From: a virus
Reading direction: 5' to 3' (one strand)
DNA: 22,240 bases
Virus record (IMG/VR): IMGVR_UViG_3300010885_033367
Location: 1 to 22,240 of that record
Made by a program: the position numbers and the translations under genes. How positions within the stretch are numbered: position 1 is the first letter of the stretch; each line of letters opens with the position of its first letter. This document shows, piece by piece, positions 16,356 through 22,198 of the stretch. Below the pieces are notes generated by a model. That model searched no databases, was not told where the DNA came from, and saw only the letters and a program-made list of their open reading frames with translations.

Positions 16356-16802
16356 ATGGCCATGAACTACCGTCAAGGCGCTTATGCTGTAAAAAACACT
16401 GCCAAGTATGTGGGCCGTGGCACACCAAGATACAGATCCGGGTGGGAACTTACCTTTATGATGTTTTTAGATTCAAATGAAAATGTCCTACAATGGGCCA
16501 GCGAAAGTATCAGTATACCTTATCGCAATCCACTTACTGGCAAGCAAAGTGTTTATATTCCAGACTTTTTGGTAACCTATCGCGGCCCCAACAACACTAC
16601 AAAGGCCGAGCTGATAGAAATTAAACCCAAAAAACAAAGCGTACTTGAAAGCAAGGCAAGTGACCGTGACCGTGCTGTTGTAGCATTAAATTATGCCAAG
16701 TGGGATAGTGCAACCAAATGGGCCAAGAAAAATGGCCTTACCTTTCGTGTGATCAACGAAGATCAGATTTATCATCAAGGCAACAAAAAGACCGGTAAAT
16801 AG
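16356..16802 (+). CDS. 4: Head completion protein, T4 gp4-like
   Basis: The protein has 148 residues, about the same length as T4 gp4. The features RYRSGWELTFMMFLD, VLQWASESISIPY, VYIPDFLVTYRG and AELIEIKPKKQ are the gp4 pattern. E31, D70, E88 and K90 form a PD-(D/E)xK nuclease-like set. In T4 gp4 acts after packaging to make the head competent for tail joining. In T4, head completion at this step involves gp4, gp2 and the neck proteins. Two starts are possible (16356 and 16362); I keep the first. It follows the preceding gene by two bases, which suggests coupled translation. Confidence 0.82.
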   Translation: MAMNYRQGAYAVKNTAKYVGRGTPRYRSGWELTFMMFLDSNENVLQWASESISIPYRNPLTGKQSVYIPDFLVTYRGPNNTTKAELIEIKPKKQSVLESKASDRDRAVVALNYAKWDSATKWAKKNGLTFRVINEDQIYHQGNKKTGK

Positions 16803-17334: not shown

Positions 17335-17940
17335 ATGAAAAATTTTCAACAATACCTCGCAGAATCTGAGCGCACATACAACTACAGAATCAAAATTGTA
17401 GGTGATGTTGCTCCTGATTTCGTCAAACAGCTAGAAGAAAAACTTGCACAGTTTGACATTGTAAAAATCACCAAGCCAAAAACCACACCGGTGCAACTCA
17501 AGCCTGCTGACTTCCCCAAGCACAGCAACGACAGTGTAACCAGCATGGACGTGGAATTTCGTTATCCAGCTATTGAGCCACAGATCAAACAGATCGCTCA
17601 ATTGTTGATGATGGATCCAAATCGCATCATCATGTTGACTACACCGCATGAAGAAGGTATGGATTCAGAGCGTGAGCGTATTGCGGCACAGAACAAAGAT
17701 TTGTTGGACACGGATTATCCTGCTGACACCGCAGAACAAAAAGCCCTGATTGCGGATTATTCTGCTCCATATGATGAGCATGCAGTATTAAAGAACACAT
17801 ATCGTAGTGACTTTACAGTGGCCGGTGGTAAGACTCCGCCTGCAAAAACTACAAATGATTTGCCAATGGGCAACGACAGCCCAATGACCAAAGTAAAACG
17901 CCCACCACGTCCAGCTACTGGTGCCAACCCAAGAGGATAA
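17335..17940 (+). CDS. Putative capsid-interior protein with T4-like targeting peptide (201 aa)
   Basis: The N-terminus MKNFQQYLAE aligns over all ten residues with the T4 internal-protein capsid-targeting sequence MKTYQEFIAE: five identities and five conservative or similar changes. It ends in the L.E site expected for a prohead protease. After it, residues ~15-105 (TYNYRIKIVGDVAPDFVKQL, then EKLAQFDIVKITKPK and EPQIKQIAQLLMMDPNRIIM) look like a ferredoxin-like beta-alpha-beta domain. Residues ~120-201 are acidic, then proline/basic and probably disordered. I know similar proteins from marine T4-like phages only as unknown structural proteins. Packaging in the head and cleavage after residue 10 are inferences. 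It is followed four bases later by the 637-residue gene. Confidence 0.72.
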   Translation: MKNFQQYLAESERTYNYRIKIVGDVAPDFVKQLEEKLAQFDIVKITKPKTTPVQLKPADFPKHSNDSVTSMDVEFRYPAIEPQIKQIAQLLMMDPNRIIMLTTPHEEGMDSERERIAAQNKDLLDTDYPADTAEQKALIADYSAPYDEHAVLKNTYRSDFTVAGGKTPPAKTTNDLPMGNDSPMTKVKRPPRPATGANPRG

Positions 17941-17944
17941 TAGA

Positions 17945-19858
17945 ATGACATTTTTTTACGACTTAAACAAGAGATTGGCCACACTAGCTAGCAAACAAGA
18001 CGCAGAACAACTTGCAGAACACGCAACACCTGCTCCACAGCAACCTAAAAAAGGTTCATTGGCACAAGCACTGAACGAGCGTGACCTAGGCAAACACAAC
18101 AATGCTACAACAGGCTTCAAAGCCTTGGCCAAGAAAGCCGGCGGTGGAAACATCGAAAAGGGCAATCGTATTGCTGGCGCACAGTTGGCAAAAATGCGAG
18201 CCAAGGGCCAAGTTGAAGAAAGTGACATGGACGAAAGTGCATTCCAAGCAGCCATTGGTAAAAAGAAATACGGCGAAAAGGGCATGAAGGCTTTGCAAAA
18301 GGCCGGCCGTGAACATGCCAGCGACAAGACCATGGACAACATTCGCAACCGATATGACAAGTATGATGAGAGTCAAGGCATAGCTGATGAAGGTAATGCA
18401 TTTACAGGCAAACTTGCTTCAACACCAAAGGGTGGTAAGTTCAAGTTAGGCGATAAAGAATTTAAAGACACAAGCGAAATTGAAGAAGGTTTTAAAGAGA
18501 TGGATGCTTGGATGGCCAGTCGTGAAAAAGAAAAAGGCACAGGTAAGTTTGATAAAAAAGAACGCACATTGCCAGACGGAACAAAAGCCACTACTTACAC
18601 TCGTAAACACGAAGATGACGAAGAAGATGACAAAGACGCACCAGAAGCTAAAGGTGGCGCTCCTAAGAAAAAAGGACGTCCAAAATCTGCTGCATCAAAA
18701 GATTCAGAGCGTGTGACCAAAGGCAGTCACAAGTATAAAACAGTTGACGGCAAGCGTGTTAAGAAAGAAAAAACCAAAGAAGATCTTGATAGCGATAGTG
18801 TTATGATGACTCGTCCTACAAATTGTTCTAGCGAAAGTATTGAACACGGTGAACAGGCGGAGTATAATGACGAAGCTGGTATGACCAAAGATTCTTTGCA
18901 CACTATCATGCGTCATGCCAAAGAACTTGAAAGTGCCCTACGCGACAACGAAAACTTGCCAGAATGGGTACAAGAAAAGATTGGTCAGATCAAAGGCATG
19001 ATGAGCAGTGTTACTGATTACATTATCAGCACACACGAGCGTGACGCAGAACAACAAGTTATGCCCGAAGTGGCTCCTCCTGGTGCCAAAGCCGAACGCA
19101 TGGTCAAAGGTATTAAAAAGTCGTTGAGCAAAGATGGTCACCTGAGTGGTAAAGACAAGGCTATTGCTTATGCCACTACTTGGAAAGCTAAAAAGGATGG
19201 CAAGGTAGAAGAAGCTGGCAAGCCAGACTTTTTGGATCTAGACAAAGATGGTGACAAGAAAGAGCCAATGAAAAAAGCCGCCAAAGATAAAAAAGAAGAA
19301 AAAGTTGATGAAACAACTGTAGCCGGTAGTGTAGCTACAGCACCAGCCGGTGCTAAAAAATCCGCTGGTGGTTACAATTTTGGCGGCGGCGTGTACGAAG
19401 GATTAAACACTCAAGTTGAATCAATGATTACCGAAGGTATGAATGTTACTGTAAACATGAACGTTGGTGAGGATGGCGAAACTCGCAAGAGTATTACCGT
19501 CAGTGCCGAAGGCGAAGAAGCTGATCAGTTGGCCGCATTGTTAAAAATGGCTGGCTTACATGGTCAATCCGCTGAAGCTTGCGGCACATGTGGTAACACA
19601 CCATGTGGTTGCGAACAAACAGTTGATGAAGCCTATGGCGACACAGACGAAACGCTGAACGATCCGGATTGGCCAACTGACACAGAAACACTTGAGGCAG
19701 AACCAAATCTACGTACATACTCAGGTGGATTGAACGGTCCTAAGAGCACTGGTCAAACAACTGTTCCTGTTGTGGCTAGTCAAGAACGTCGTTTGCATTC
19801 TGAATCAGTAGAGCTTGAGCGTAGTTTGTTCAAGACTTGGAAAAATTATAAAGGTTAA
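17945..19858 (+). CDS. Large charged protein with AT-hook-like, EF-hand-like and Cys motifs; putative prohead core or internal protein
   Basis: The start is ATG 17945 (MTFFYDLNKRLATLASKQ) after AGGATAATAG. A GTG at 17921 would overlap the upstream gene and is less likely. The protein has 637 residues and is very rich in K, E, D, G and A. Residues ~45-140 hold two related helical segments (GFKALAKKAG and GMKALQKAGR). Residues ~241-248 (KKKGRPKS) match an AT-hook. Residues ~313-370 are a helical domain, and ~403-412 read KDKAIAYATTW. Residues ~430-443 (DLDKDGDKKEP) match an EF-hand or dockerin-like calcium loop. Residues ~487-537 are a beta-alpha domain with NVTVNMNVGEDGE and QLAALLKMAG. Residues ~546-556 form a C..C....C.C cluster. 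Several L/I-x-E sites (LAE, LNE, IEE, ITE) could be cut by a prohead protease. I infer a packaged or scaffold-core protein; none of this is proven. Confidence 0.75.
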   Translation: MTFFYDLNKRLATLASKQDAEQLAEHATPAPQQPKKGSLAQALNERDLGKHNNATTGFKALAKKAGGGNIEKGNRIAGAQLAKMRAKGQVEESDMDESAFQAAIGKKKYGEKGMKALQKAGREHASDKTMDNIRNRYDKYDESQGIADEGNAFTGKLASTPKGGKFKLGDKEFKDTSEIEEGFKEMDAWMASREKEKGTGKFDKKERTLPDGTKATTYTRKHEDDEEDDKDAPEAKGGAPKKKGRPKSAASKDSERVTKGSHKYKTVDGKRVKKEKTKEDLDSDSVMMTRPTNCSSESIEHGEQAEYNDEAGMTKDSLHTIMRHAKELESALRDNENLPEWVQEKIGQIKGMMSSVTDYIISTHERDAEQQVMPEVAPPGAKAERMVKGIKKSLSKDGHLSGKDKAIAYATTWKAKKDGKVEEAGKPDFLDLDKDGDKKEPMKKAAKDKKEEKVDETTVAGSVATAPAGAKKSAGGYNFGGGVYEGLNTQVESMITEGMNVTVNMNVGEDGETRKSITVSAEGEEADQLAALLKMAGLHGQSAEACGTCGNTPCGCEQTVDEAYGDTDETLNDPDWPTDTETLEAEPNLRTYSGGLNGPKSTGQTTVPVVASQERRLHSESVELERSLFKTWKNYKG

Positions 19859-19863
19859 TCAAC

Positions 19864-20157
19864 ATGGCTATTCAAGTAATCAATGCCGCAGGCAACGTAA
19901 CATGGACCACAGACAAAGCAGAAATCAATGCTAACAGTGCAGATGTTACCTATCAGGTATTTGCCAAAGCTCTGGGAAATGCCGCTCCGGTGGGCAACTT
20001 GTACGCCAATGTGGTCAGTGTTCCTAACGGAAGCACACGAGAAATTTATGTTGGCGCCGGTAACTACCTAATTATGGTAGGGACTACATTTACTGCCAGA
20101 GCATTGGGCACAGCCAGTTCAGCACAATCAGGTGTCTACAACGCCGCCGGAAACTAA
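19864..20157 (+). CDS. Small beta-rich protein, unknown (97 aa)
   Basis: The ATG lies five bases after the previous stop. The sequence is beta-strand-like throughout (VTYQVFAKALGN, NLYANVVSVPNG, REIYVGAGNYLIMVGTTF) with few charged residues. This is compatible with a small beta-sandwich, such as a head decoration or virion accessory protein. No family recognised. It sits between the charged 637-residue protein and the first of three paralogous proteins, and is probably co-transcribed with them. Confidence 0.7.
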   Translation: MAIQVINAAGNVTWTTDKAEINANSADVTYQVFAKALGNAAPVGNLYANVVSVPNGSTREIYVGAGNYLIMVGTTFTARALGTASSAQSGVYNAAGN

Positions 20158-20159
20158 AC

Positions 20160-20540
20160 GTGCGAGCCCGAGAGTTTATTGCCGAAGGTGGTAGAGGCGG
20201 AACCAGATCTGCTCCCAACCACGAATTTGAACAAGCACATCCAGGTCTAGTTGGTCCAGGCGGCCAAGGCGATGTGTATTGGGGCCGTTATTACGACCAT
20301 TATCGTGTATCAACATTGGCCGGAATGCATCCAGACGATATTGCTAAAATGGATGAAATTAACTTCTTTGGCAACTTGCCAATATTCAGTGCATACACTG
20401 AATATGACCGTAAAAAACTCAAGGCAATCATGAAAAAGCTTCGCATGAAGCCCACAGACTACATTGGTCCTGGCAGTCTTGAATCAACTGACACCAACCA
20501 CACCAGCCCAGTAACTGCGTTCAAGGGTTACGCAAAGTAA
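20160..20540 (+). CDS. Tagged paralogue 1: putative internal head protein (126 aa)
   Basis: It starts at GTG 20160, two bases after the previous stop. The start is fixed by its conserved N-terminus MRAREFIAE, shared with the genes at 21417 and 21812 and ending in the I.E site typical of T4 capsid-targeting peptides. The C-terminus HTSPVTAFKGYAK is also shared with the other two. Between the tags lies a segment with YDHYRVSTLAGM, then YTEYDRKKLKAIMKKLRMKP, corresponding in position to parts of its paralogues. The middle is much more divergent than the ends. Function unknown. I infer capsid packaging and removal of the first nine residues by the prohead protease. It is followed one base later by the hydrolase gene. 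Confidence 0.78.
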   Translation: MRAREFIAEGGRGGTRSAPNHEFEQAHPGLVGPGGQGDVYWGRYYDHYRVSTLAGMHPDDIAKMDEINFFGNLPIFSAYTEYDRKKLKAIMKKLRMKPTDYIGPGSLESTDTNHTSPVTAFKGYAK

Positions 20541-20541
20541 A

Positions 20542-21420
20542 ATGTGTATAATCATCGCCAAATACTTTGACGGTATTGGTTGGGCCGGCGCCAAAAATCG
20601 CGACCGTAACTATACTCCTGTGTTGGATTTTATTGAATCCGACGAAGACGGTGTTGAACGCATGATGATGCATGACGAGATTACCGGCTACAAAGAAGGC
20701 ATCAACAGCCACGGTATCAGTATCTTAAACACAAGTCTTGATGTGTACGATGATGAAAGTGAAGTCGAAGCAGGCACTGCCAAAGCAAGTCCTGATGGAA
20801 AAACTATTTCTGAAGCATTGTTGCAAGATACTGCACTTGCGGCAGCAAAAATCATTATCAAACGAAAAATGGGTGGGTTTACCATGGTGTTTGATCACGA
20901 CACCATGTATTTGATCGAAGCCAGTGACTGGGACGGTACCAAACCTTACAAATTTGTAGCCAAACGTATACCCAACGATCAATTGGTTGCTAGAACTAAT
21001 CACGGCGTTTGGTTGCCTGGTGCAGGATATCAACGTAAACCTGATAATCAAAGTGAAACACTCAGCAGAATCAGCAGTGAAACTAGATTGTTGTTGGCCG
21101 AGGCTGTGGTAGAAGCAGCTGAAGATCCAGAAGATTTAGTGGATGGCATGTGTCAAGTTTACATCAATGACTCCCAGCTAAATATAATGAGAACCAGCAC
21201 AGAAAAAAAGAAAATGCGGACTACTAGCCAGCAGTTATGTGTACCCAAGGAACGGACACTGTATTGCAGACCAGTTAGTAGTCATTCAAAATTTGATTTT
21301 TGGCGTCTTAATCGTCCCAATACCGGTGTATGGGTTGAGATATTGAGTAATCGTGCTTTATGGCAGAACACCCAAGGTGATCCTCCATTTGGTCAAATGA
21401 AACTGAAGGATGTAAAATGA
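20542..21420 (+). CDS. N-terminal-nucleophile hydrolase-like protein (C45/AAT-like)
   Basis: The protein has 292 residues and starts MCIIIAKYFDGIG. Removal of Met would expose Cys2 as the nucleophile. GAKNRDRNYTP (16-26) matches the N/G-R-D position of Ntn hydrolases (acyl-transferase, penicillin/bile-acid amidase and TANGO2-type proteins). YKEGINSHGISILNTSL (50-66) matches the conserved G.N..G.A... strand. MVFDHDTMYLIEASDW and LVARTNHGVWLPG (149-161) match later strands, with N153 and H154 in the TNH motif of the C45-like group. The family cleaves or forms amide bonds; the substrate here is unknown. It lies between putative internal-protein genes, overlaps the next ATG (ATGA) and has no capsid-targeting tag. 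It may be a virion-linked or host-modifying enzyme; this is inference. Confidence 0.7.
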   Translation: MCIIIAKYFDGIGWAGAKNRDRNYTPVLDFIESDEDGVERMMMHDEITGYKEGINSHGISILNTSLDVYDDESEVEAGTAKASPDGKTISEALLQDTALAAAKIIIKRKMGGFTMVFDHDTMYLIEASDWDGTKPYKFVAKRIPNDQLVARTNHGVWLPGAGYQRKPDNQSETLSRISSETRLLLAEAVVEAAEDPEDLVDGMCQVYINDSQLNIMRTSTEKKKMRTTSQQLCVPKERTLYCRPVSSHSKFDFWRLNRPNTGVWVEILSNRALWQNTQGDPPFGQMKLKDVK

Positions 21421-21815
21421 GAGCTCGTGATTTTGTAGCAGAGGCAAAGTTTGGATCAGCACAGGATGTGCCTGCCAACGCTAAAAAATTGCCAAATCAT
21501 CAGGCCACAGCTATCAAAGGTGCTATCAGCATGCCTGACATTAGCATGACCAAACAAGGCGGCAGTCCTTACACACAATGGCGTTTTGGTATTGCCATGG
21601 CTGGTGCGCCTGACTTTCCTACACCACCTGCTGGTGCGTTTGCTGGCGATCCGCTGTTGGCCACCTATACTGATGTAGACTTAGATATTATCAATGCCGC
21701 TGCCAAATCAGTTGGCGCTGGCCGCGTTACAAAATTAACAGACAATCGTAGCACTGAACACGAAGGTGTTTACAAAACAAGTCCAGTAAAAGGATTTAAA
21801 GGTTATCCAAGATGA
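21417..21815 (+). CDS. Tagged paralogue 2: putative internal head protein (132 aa)
   Basis: The ATG overlaps the hydrolase stop (ATGA). The N-terminus MRARDFVAEAK and the C-terminus KTSPVKGFKGYPR match the other two paralogues. The centre has YTQWRFGIAMAGAPDF, aligned with YDHYRVSTLAGM and YQTYRVGVALARA in its paralogues. It then has YTDVDLDIINAAAKSVGAG. Synonymous and non-synonymous differences at the tag DNA indicate protein-level conservation and not recent copying. It overlaps the next gene (ATGA). Packaging and cleavage after VAE are inferred from the T4 model. Confidence 0.78.
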   Translation: MRARDFVAEAKFGSAQDVPANAKKLPNHQATAIKGAISMPDISMTKQGGSPYTQWRFGIAMAGAPDFPTPPAGAFAGDPLLATYTDVDLDIINAAAKSVGAGRVTKLTDNRSTEHEGVYKTSPVKGFKGYPR

Positions 21816-22198
21816 GAGCCCGCGAGTTTATCACCGAAGAAAAAGCCCTGCCAGCTGATCAAGGCGACCCGTTGGCTTATGTATATAGGATAAACGGATT
21901 GTTCAGCAGCGATACCTATCAAACTTACCGAGTTGGTGTGGCCCTAGCCCGTGCCAGGAGCGATGCAGTAAAAGATGATGTGAATCCTTACATGTTGCCA
22001 TGGGACGACCAAGAAATATTTGGCGAGCACGGAGTTATAGCCGGAGTTGGTGAGGACGTCAGCAATCTTATAGATCAAGCCTTGCAAATGACCGACACTC
22101 CAGGTGGCAAACAATTAGTAGGTTCGGCTGCTAGCGAAGAACCTAAGTCTGTGGAAAAAACAAGTCCTGTAAAGGCATTTAAGGGTTACCCAAGGTAA
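21812..22198 (+). CDS. Tagged paralogue 3: putative internal head protein (128 aa)
   Basis: It starts at the ATG overlapping the previous stop. N-terminus MRAREFITEEK, C-terminus KTSPVKAFKGYPR. The centre has YQTYRVGVALARARSDAVKD, then a P/D-rich loop, then a helix VSNLIDQALQMTD. This is the same layout as its two paralogues, with little sequence identity between tags. The stop overlaps the start of the next gene (TAATG), so the whole cluster is translated from tightly coupled cistrons. Function unknown. Confidence 0.78.
   Translation: MRAREFITEEKALPADQGDPLAYVYRINGLFSSDTYQTYRVGVALARARSDAVKDDVNPYMLPWDDQEIFGEHGVIAGVGEDVSNLIDQALQMTDTPGGKQLVGSAASEEPKSVEKTSPVKAFKGYPR

Follow-up and report, generated by a model that had tools for sequence, protein, structure and literature searches.

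Short N-terminal tags resembling the T4 capsid-targeting leader on two protein classes of an uncultivated jumbo phage and on unrelated families in related phages

The stretch of DNA analysed here (the window) is the complete IMG/VR record IMGVR_UViG_3300010885_033367, 22,240 bases long, and our subject is a group of genes near its downstream end whose products begin with short sequences (tags) resembling the peptide that directs internal proteins into the prohead of bacteriophage T4. The tail sheath protein of the window is closest to those of Sinorhizobium phage Phosso, Agrobacterium phage Atu_ph07 and Pseudomonas phage PA5oct, which identifies the window, by sequence similarity, as a fragment of an uncultivated T4-superfamily jumbo phage; a megablast of the window against phages gave no match. 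With genes named by their first base, the order is tail sheath (10641), tail tube region (14162, 14795), head closure (16356), 17335, 17921, 19864, 20160, a C45-like gene (20542), 21417 and 21812, and the features of this region are as follows.

16356..16802, + strand: head closure protein, T4 gp4-like, with a TnsA-like nuclease fold (phrog_218, E 8.8e-38; PF08722), upstream of the cargo region
17335..17940, + strand: 201-amino-acid protein of phrog_14802 with tag MKNFQQYLAE, predicted cleavage after E10
17335..17364, + strand: the capsid-targeting-like tag MKNFQQYLAE itself
17921..19858, + strand: 645-amino-acid K/E-rich protein, untagged, adjoining 17335; start uncertain
20160..20540, + strand: paralogue 1, 126 amino acids, tag MRAREFIAE, GTG start, C-terminus TSPVTAFKGYAK
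20542..21420, + strand: C45/Ntn-hydrolase-like protein, 292 amino acids, untagged, within the array; its stop overlaps the start of 21417
21417..21815, + strand: paralogue 2, 132 amino acids, tag MRARDFVAE, C-terminus TSPVKGFKGYPR
21812..22198, + strand: paralogue 3, 128 amino acids, tag MRAREFITE, C-terminus TSPVKAFKGYPR; 4-nucleotide overlap with the preceding stop

The four open reading frames (ORFs) singled out in an earlier note on this DNA are borne out by the ORFs of the window, each with a tag ending in (L/I/V)xE. The likeness that the note drew between MKNFQQYLAE and MKTYQEFIAE, with which the internal proteins IPII and IPIII start in the deposited T4 genome, also held, with 5 of 10 residues identical (M1, K2, Q5, A9, E10) and conservative replacements at Y4F, F7Y and I8L. 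Positions 4 and 7 of the T4 peptide are its main targeting residues, and positions 8 and 10 are those of processing (PMC9026906, section 2.6); as read from its residues, MKNFQQYLAE follows the T4 rules at all of these positions. In the MRAxEF[IV]xE tags, which are shorter by one residue, the likeness is to the EFIAE half of the T4 peptide. Protein 17335 has the aromatics F4 and Y7, and in the MRA tags F6 corresponds to position 7. The P3 residue is isoleucine in MRAREFITE and MRAREFIAE and valine in MRARDFVAE, and the T4 leader form (about 10–19 residues, (L/I)xE) was recovered. What had been described as a cluster of four does contain four tagged proteins, yet only two independent cases, since the three MRA proteins are paralogues: these belong to an unannotated family, unrelated to the single phrog_14802 ("virion structural protein") member. 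The paralogues also share a C-terminal SPVxxFKGYPR-type motif that the earlier note had missed. The tag motif heads 4 of the 26 called genes of the window. As a measure of chance, four related long contigs contain 4,892 internal methionines, of which 6 are followed by the motif, and none of the 119 in the window is; stronger evidence than this rate, at the level of aligned proteins, is the conservation of the tags.

Protein 17335 matched phrog_14802 over residues 1–130 (E 2.6e-4), and the same PHROG matched all 14 of 14 aligned members of the 17335 family, the best at 4.3e-16, with the N-terminus included. Residues M1, K2, F4, Y7, L8 and E10 are invariant among 26 aquatic relatives. The PA5oct homologue EST35_0202 (28.8% identity over 75%) lies in the same order after the head closure gene and is annotated "structural protein, ESI-MS/MS" (electrospray ionization tandem mass spectrometry). 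Protein 17335 itself is probably a virion protein, either structural or associated with the core. Its structure model, with a predicted local distance difference test (pLDDT) of 60 and a predicted template modelling score (pTM) of 0.36, is too weak for a fold to be assigned.

The three MRA proteins are homologous over their entire length, with 26–31% identity to 21812 in the alignment. Across 71 aligned members of this small family, tag residues M1, R2, A3, F6 and E9 are invariant, and the tag is followed by a linker hypervariable in length and sequence and then by a conserved domain with invariant residues R40, S108, E110, S118, P119, F123, G125 and Y126 (21812 numbering). The tag codons vary synonymously in a set of 89 sequences (R2 as AGA, CGA, CGT or CGG; A3 as any of four codons; E9 as GAA or GAG), 14 of which start with GTG; this set was gathered by means of the tag motif and the C-terminal motif, and the invariance of the P1 glutamate within it is therefore partly by construction, and inflated. 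Homologues found by tblastn with no motif requirement had the same tag pattern, in the form MRAxEFIxE, MKINEIIxE or MKIRELME according to lineage, and the C-terminal FKGY motif was confined to one lineage. Tblastn with four members gave no match to the family in 50,697 phage records, and no cyanophage homologue either. The family proteins of the window had no Pfam match, and comparison with PHROGs gave none that was significant, with scattered weak matches (best 0.0065) for one member each. The model of 21812 (pLDDT 72, pTM 0.40) is likewise too weak for fold assignment, and viral structure matches to the models are uncharacterised phage proteins. We take the three small paralogues to be probable internal proteins.

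The wider N-terminal motif search that had been proposed for related phages found the tag well beyond these two classes. In a census of 5,436 distinct genes on the related contigs that we fetched, with alternative starts allowed, 1,292 start sites had the matching form, 434 of them with glutamate at P1, against 33 of 334 for internal sites, a 3.4-fold enrichment that we treat as descriptive, and aspartate was depleted at this position of gene starts. After removal of the tag, the 434 genes fall into 64 families, 22 of them with at least two members. Tagged proteins include an Fe/Mn superoxide dismutase whose Pfam domain begins at residue 15, after the tag, as well as a class 3 lipase, LysM proteins and a GNAT-like protein. 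Another tagged group, the DUF6321 (PF19846) phage proteins, often shares the lineage-type tag of the small family on uncultivated phage contigs, although the domain is unrelated to that family. Among 21 contigs carrying both a small-family and a DUF6321 gene, with one tag taken per family where there were several, tag residue 3 agreed in 16, a count reached in 0 of 20,000 shuffles, and the tag class (A or non-A) agreed in 18 of the 21 (shuffle fraction 0.0009). A tendency of the leader to change together in two unrelated families is what one would expect of a leader constrained to fit a core or protease peculiar to the lineage. At the protein level the leader is conserved; it sits on unrelated families and differs by phage lineage. 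DUF6321 is fused to longer proteins in cyanophages, and it is untagged in two 35-kilobase Pelagibacter podophages, HTVC010P and Skadi-7.

Some individual tagged genes deserve mention. The superoxide dismutase lies on an uncultivated phage contig (L362:5988-6518) and has the tag MRAVEFLTE; the lipase (L366:452-1171) starts MKTQLLLEF and fits the tag pattern less well than the other genes do. Two adjacent genes, L285:4862-5482 (MRANEFLNE) and L285:5482-5883 (MRANEFLIE), are both tagged, the second being GNAT-like; the first has, by eye only and with no Pfam match, the look of an ADP-ribosyltransferase, which would recall T4 Alt.

The window is a 22-kilobase fragment, so the protease was judged from relatives. 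A check for a gp21-type enzyme was positive, with PF03420 (Peptidase_S77) above cut-off in G001–G004 (the four longest relatives), G006, G007 and G011–G013; the refuting condition named in the earlier note, a genome lacking a prohead protease, does not apply to the near relatives. In the near relative G001 (182,566 bp; its 17335 homologue is 98% identical) the head cluster runs portal, gp67-like protein, acidic core protein, protease, scaffold and capsid protein, and candidate (L/I)xE sites, read by eye, are present in the capsid protein (YLRE/NASS, the slash marking the site), the scaffold (LINE/EAQ) and the gp67-like protein (MILNE/IYS). Leaders of the same form occur in PA5oct: MKINDIITE at the start of the gp67-like EST35_0150 and MKIKDILVE at that of EST35_0238, two proteins annotated ESI-MS/MS, and MKFEHILNE in the scaffold-like EST35_0153. 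Other PA5oct motif matches (for example 0271 and 0422) bear no mass spectrometry annotation, and the (L/I)xE motif alone is therefore not specific. The motif matches in T4 are IPII and IPIII but also gene 61.1 and cd.2, and IPI is missed.

T4 gene 61.1 (T4 18966-19130) encodes a hypothetical protein with the leader-like start MKTFKEFIKE. A start close to the T4 leader, MKSYKQFMSES, is found on a 109-amino-acid protein of Synechococcus phage S-RIM2 (L403:3852-4178), which adjoins a protein annotated as virion structural.

We think it likely that this T4-superfamily jumbo phage has a cargo locus here, in which the leaders target proteins to the prohead and an S77 protease cleaves them. The leader, 9–10 residues long, would bind the prohead core and bring the tagged protein inside, the gp21-type S77 protease would cut after the glutamate of (L/I/V)xE, and the mature protein would stay in the head; T4 precedent makes it plausible that the protein is delivered into the host along with the DNA. 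Of the separate steps, we are most confident that the tags are head-targeting leaders, and cleavage of the leader is probable. Injection of the small-family proteins, by analogy with T4, may or may not occur, with little to choose between the two, and injection of 17335 is less likely than that, as this protein may be structural. The earlier proposal of head-interior cargo stands as regards the appearance of the leaders and the gp21-type protease in near relatives, and gives way as regards its "four" proteins, which form two unrelated classes. A wider proposition is that a lineage-specific leader serves many uncultivated T4-superfamily phages as a general cargo code, borne by dozens of unrelated proteins, enzymes included, and directing them into the head for delivery; for this we see about equal grounds on either side.

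Several observations weigh against this cargo interpretation. The MRA tags have no aromatic at position 4, which matters for T4 targeting. For the census, contigs had been collected by way of their tagged genes, alternative starts were admitted, and most of the 434 come from the three strongest families; the enrichment is therefore descriptive. In the co-variation test the tag classes were mismatched in 3 of 21 contigs, and the contigs are not phylogenetically independent, some being near-duplicates. Of 10 long contigs bearing tagged DUF6321, all of them fragments, only 6 showed an S77 protease, and a comparison of its presence between tagged- and untagged-DUF6321 contigs decides little, these being fragments of very different length. 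Lastly, the 17335 homologues of PA5oct (MKSFRDYYDA) and Phosso (MKNFYEYLSS) have no cleavage glutamate, and cleavage is therefore not general in the 17335 family. Both retain F4 and Y7, and LxE is present in the homologues of Atu_ph07 (MKTLQDYLTE) and Vibrio phage 2.275.O (MKDLNTILTE), which suggests that in this family targeting may be older than cleavage.

Retention of F4 and Y7 without the glutamate would also suit an uncleaved docking helix, through which structural or assembly proteins attach to a partner that they have in common (core, neck or tail) with no protease step, and the 17335 model has, at low confidence, a helix at residues 4–11 running into the first strand. This explanation is unlikely, however, given that the P1 glutamate is invariant among the aquatic relatives of 17335, that glutamate is enriched over internal sites and aspartate depleted at gene starts, and that the model of 21812 shows the first ten residues as disordered. 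Shared ancestry alone, with the MRA starts a product of gene duplication and the likeness of 17335 to T4 a matter of chance, would fit the full-length homology of the three MRA proteins, and two independent cases in 26 genes are modest by themselves; but the tag persists where the linker after it is hypervariable, its codons differ synonymously, and unrelated families, superoxide dismutase included, carry it; we regard this account as improbable. Slightly less probable still is that the tag addresses proteins elsewhere, to a replication compartment, membrane or degradation pathway of the infected cell, where some tagged families (superoxide dismutase, lipase) would make sense too: the gp67-like and scaffold-like head-core proteins of PA5oct bear the same leader form, a matching protease is present, and there is the T4 precedent. 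Least credible is a role in translation, with the FKGYPR codons giving a Shine-Dalgarno sequence (AAAGG) and the ATGA overlap coupling the next MRA start, for although 21417 and 21812 share an ATGA, with AAAGG ahead of it in the FKGYPR codons (window 21780–21815) and the K codon is AAA in 59 of 67, the last array gene of G001 keeps FKGYPR with the next start 28 nucleotides off, R2 and A3 use many codons, GTG starts occur in the 14 sequences noted above, and 20160 and the DUF6321 genes are tagged with no such partner. FKGYPR as a ribosome-binding site only was rejected as a full explanation on the grounds of the spacing in G001 and the codon variation; translation coupling may add to the C-terminal conservation.

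Under the cargo interpretation, the likeness to T4 IPII and IPIII lies in a short basic-hydrophobic leader ending in (L/I)xE on small proteins, together with the S77 protease in relatives. In contrast to T4, the mature parts have no sequence similarity to the internal proteins, the leader is on many families and changes by lineage, and the genes sit between head-closure and terminase genes rather than in the T4 ip loci. Overall, the system would work like that of the T4 internal proteins. PA5oct (Arenbergviridae) offers the closest annotated counterpart to 17335 in EST35_0202, but host and phage differ, that protein has no cleavage glutamate, and the small tagged family was not found there. 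Head ejection proteins of the phiKZ/SPN3US type are similar in that giant-phage N-terminal propeptides are cut after glutamate by a gp21-related protease. Those propeptides are mostly 111–254 residues long, with two of 20–24, and the SPN3US site is AxE (PMC10052503), whereas the leader here has 9–10 residues and ends in (L/I/V)xE. A literature search, with most subscription journals outside it, found no paper joining capsid targeting with uncultivated phages.

To our knowledge, it is for the most part a single phage group from which T4 internal proteins are known. At least IPI acts against a restriction enzyme of the host (PMC9026906), and IPIII is required on one E. coli strain (PMC9391042). 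If the proposed system is real, the cargo of uncultivated giant phages could be listed by collecting all bearers of a lineage's tag, and the packed, possibly injected protein set would be readable straight from metagenomic sequence. A large set of unannotated phage genes would become candidate first-response proteins, with superoxide dismutase, lipase and unannotated proteins among the candidate cargo families, and the question of what phages inject besides DNA would become testable at scale.

The neighbouring genes of the window are largely kept in G001, which retains most of the gene order and then runs on towards terminase; its array has two small tagged genes, and the C45-like gene is absent there. 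That C45-like protein (20542-21420) matched NF040521 with E 1.7e-6 and 27.6 bits, under the curated cut-off of 85, and had no Pfam or PDB match. That 17921 might be a core protein with many cleavage sites was rejected, since shuffled sequence gives the same [LI]xE count. The longest ORF at 17921 overlaps 17335, and the G001 counterpart is better read from MTFFYDLNKRL. The protein at 17921-19858 has weak matches to phrog_30733 and phrog_24078 (function unknown), and EST35_0203, which occupies the equivalent position in PA5oct, carries the annotation structural, ESI-MS/MS.

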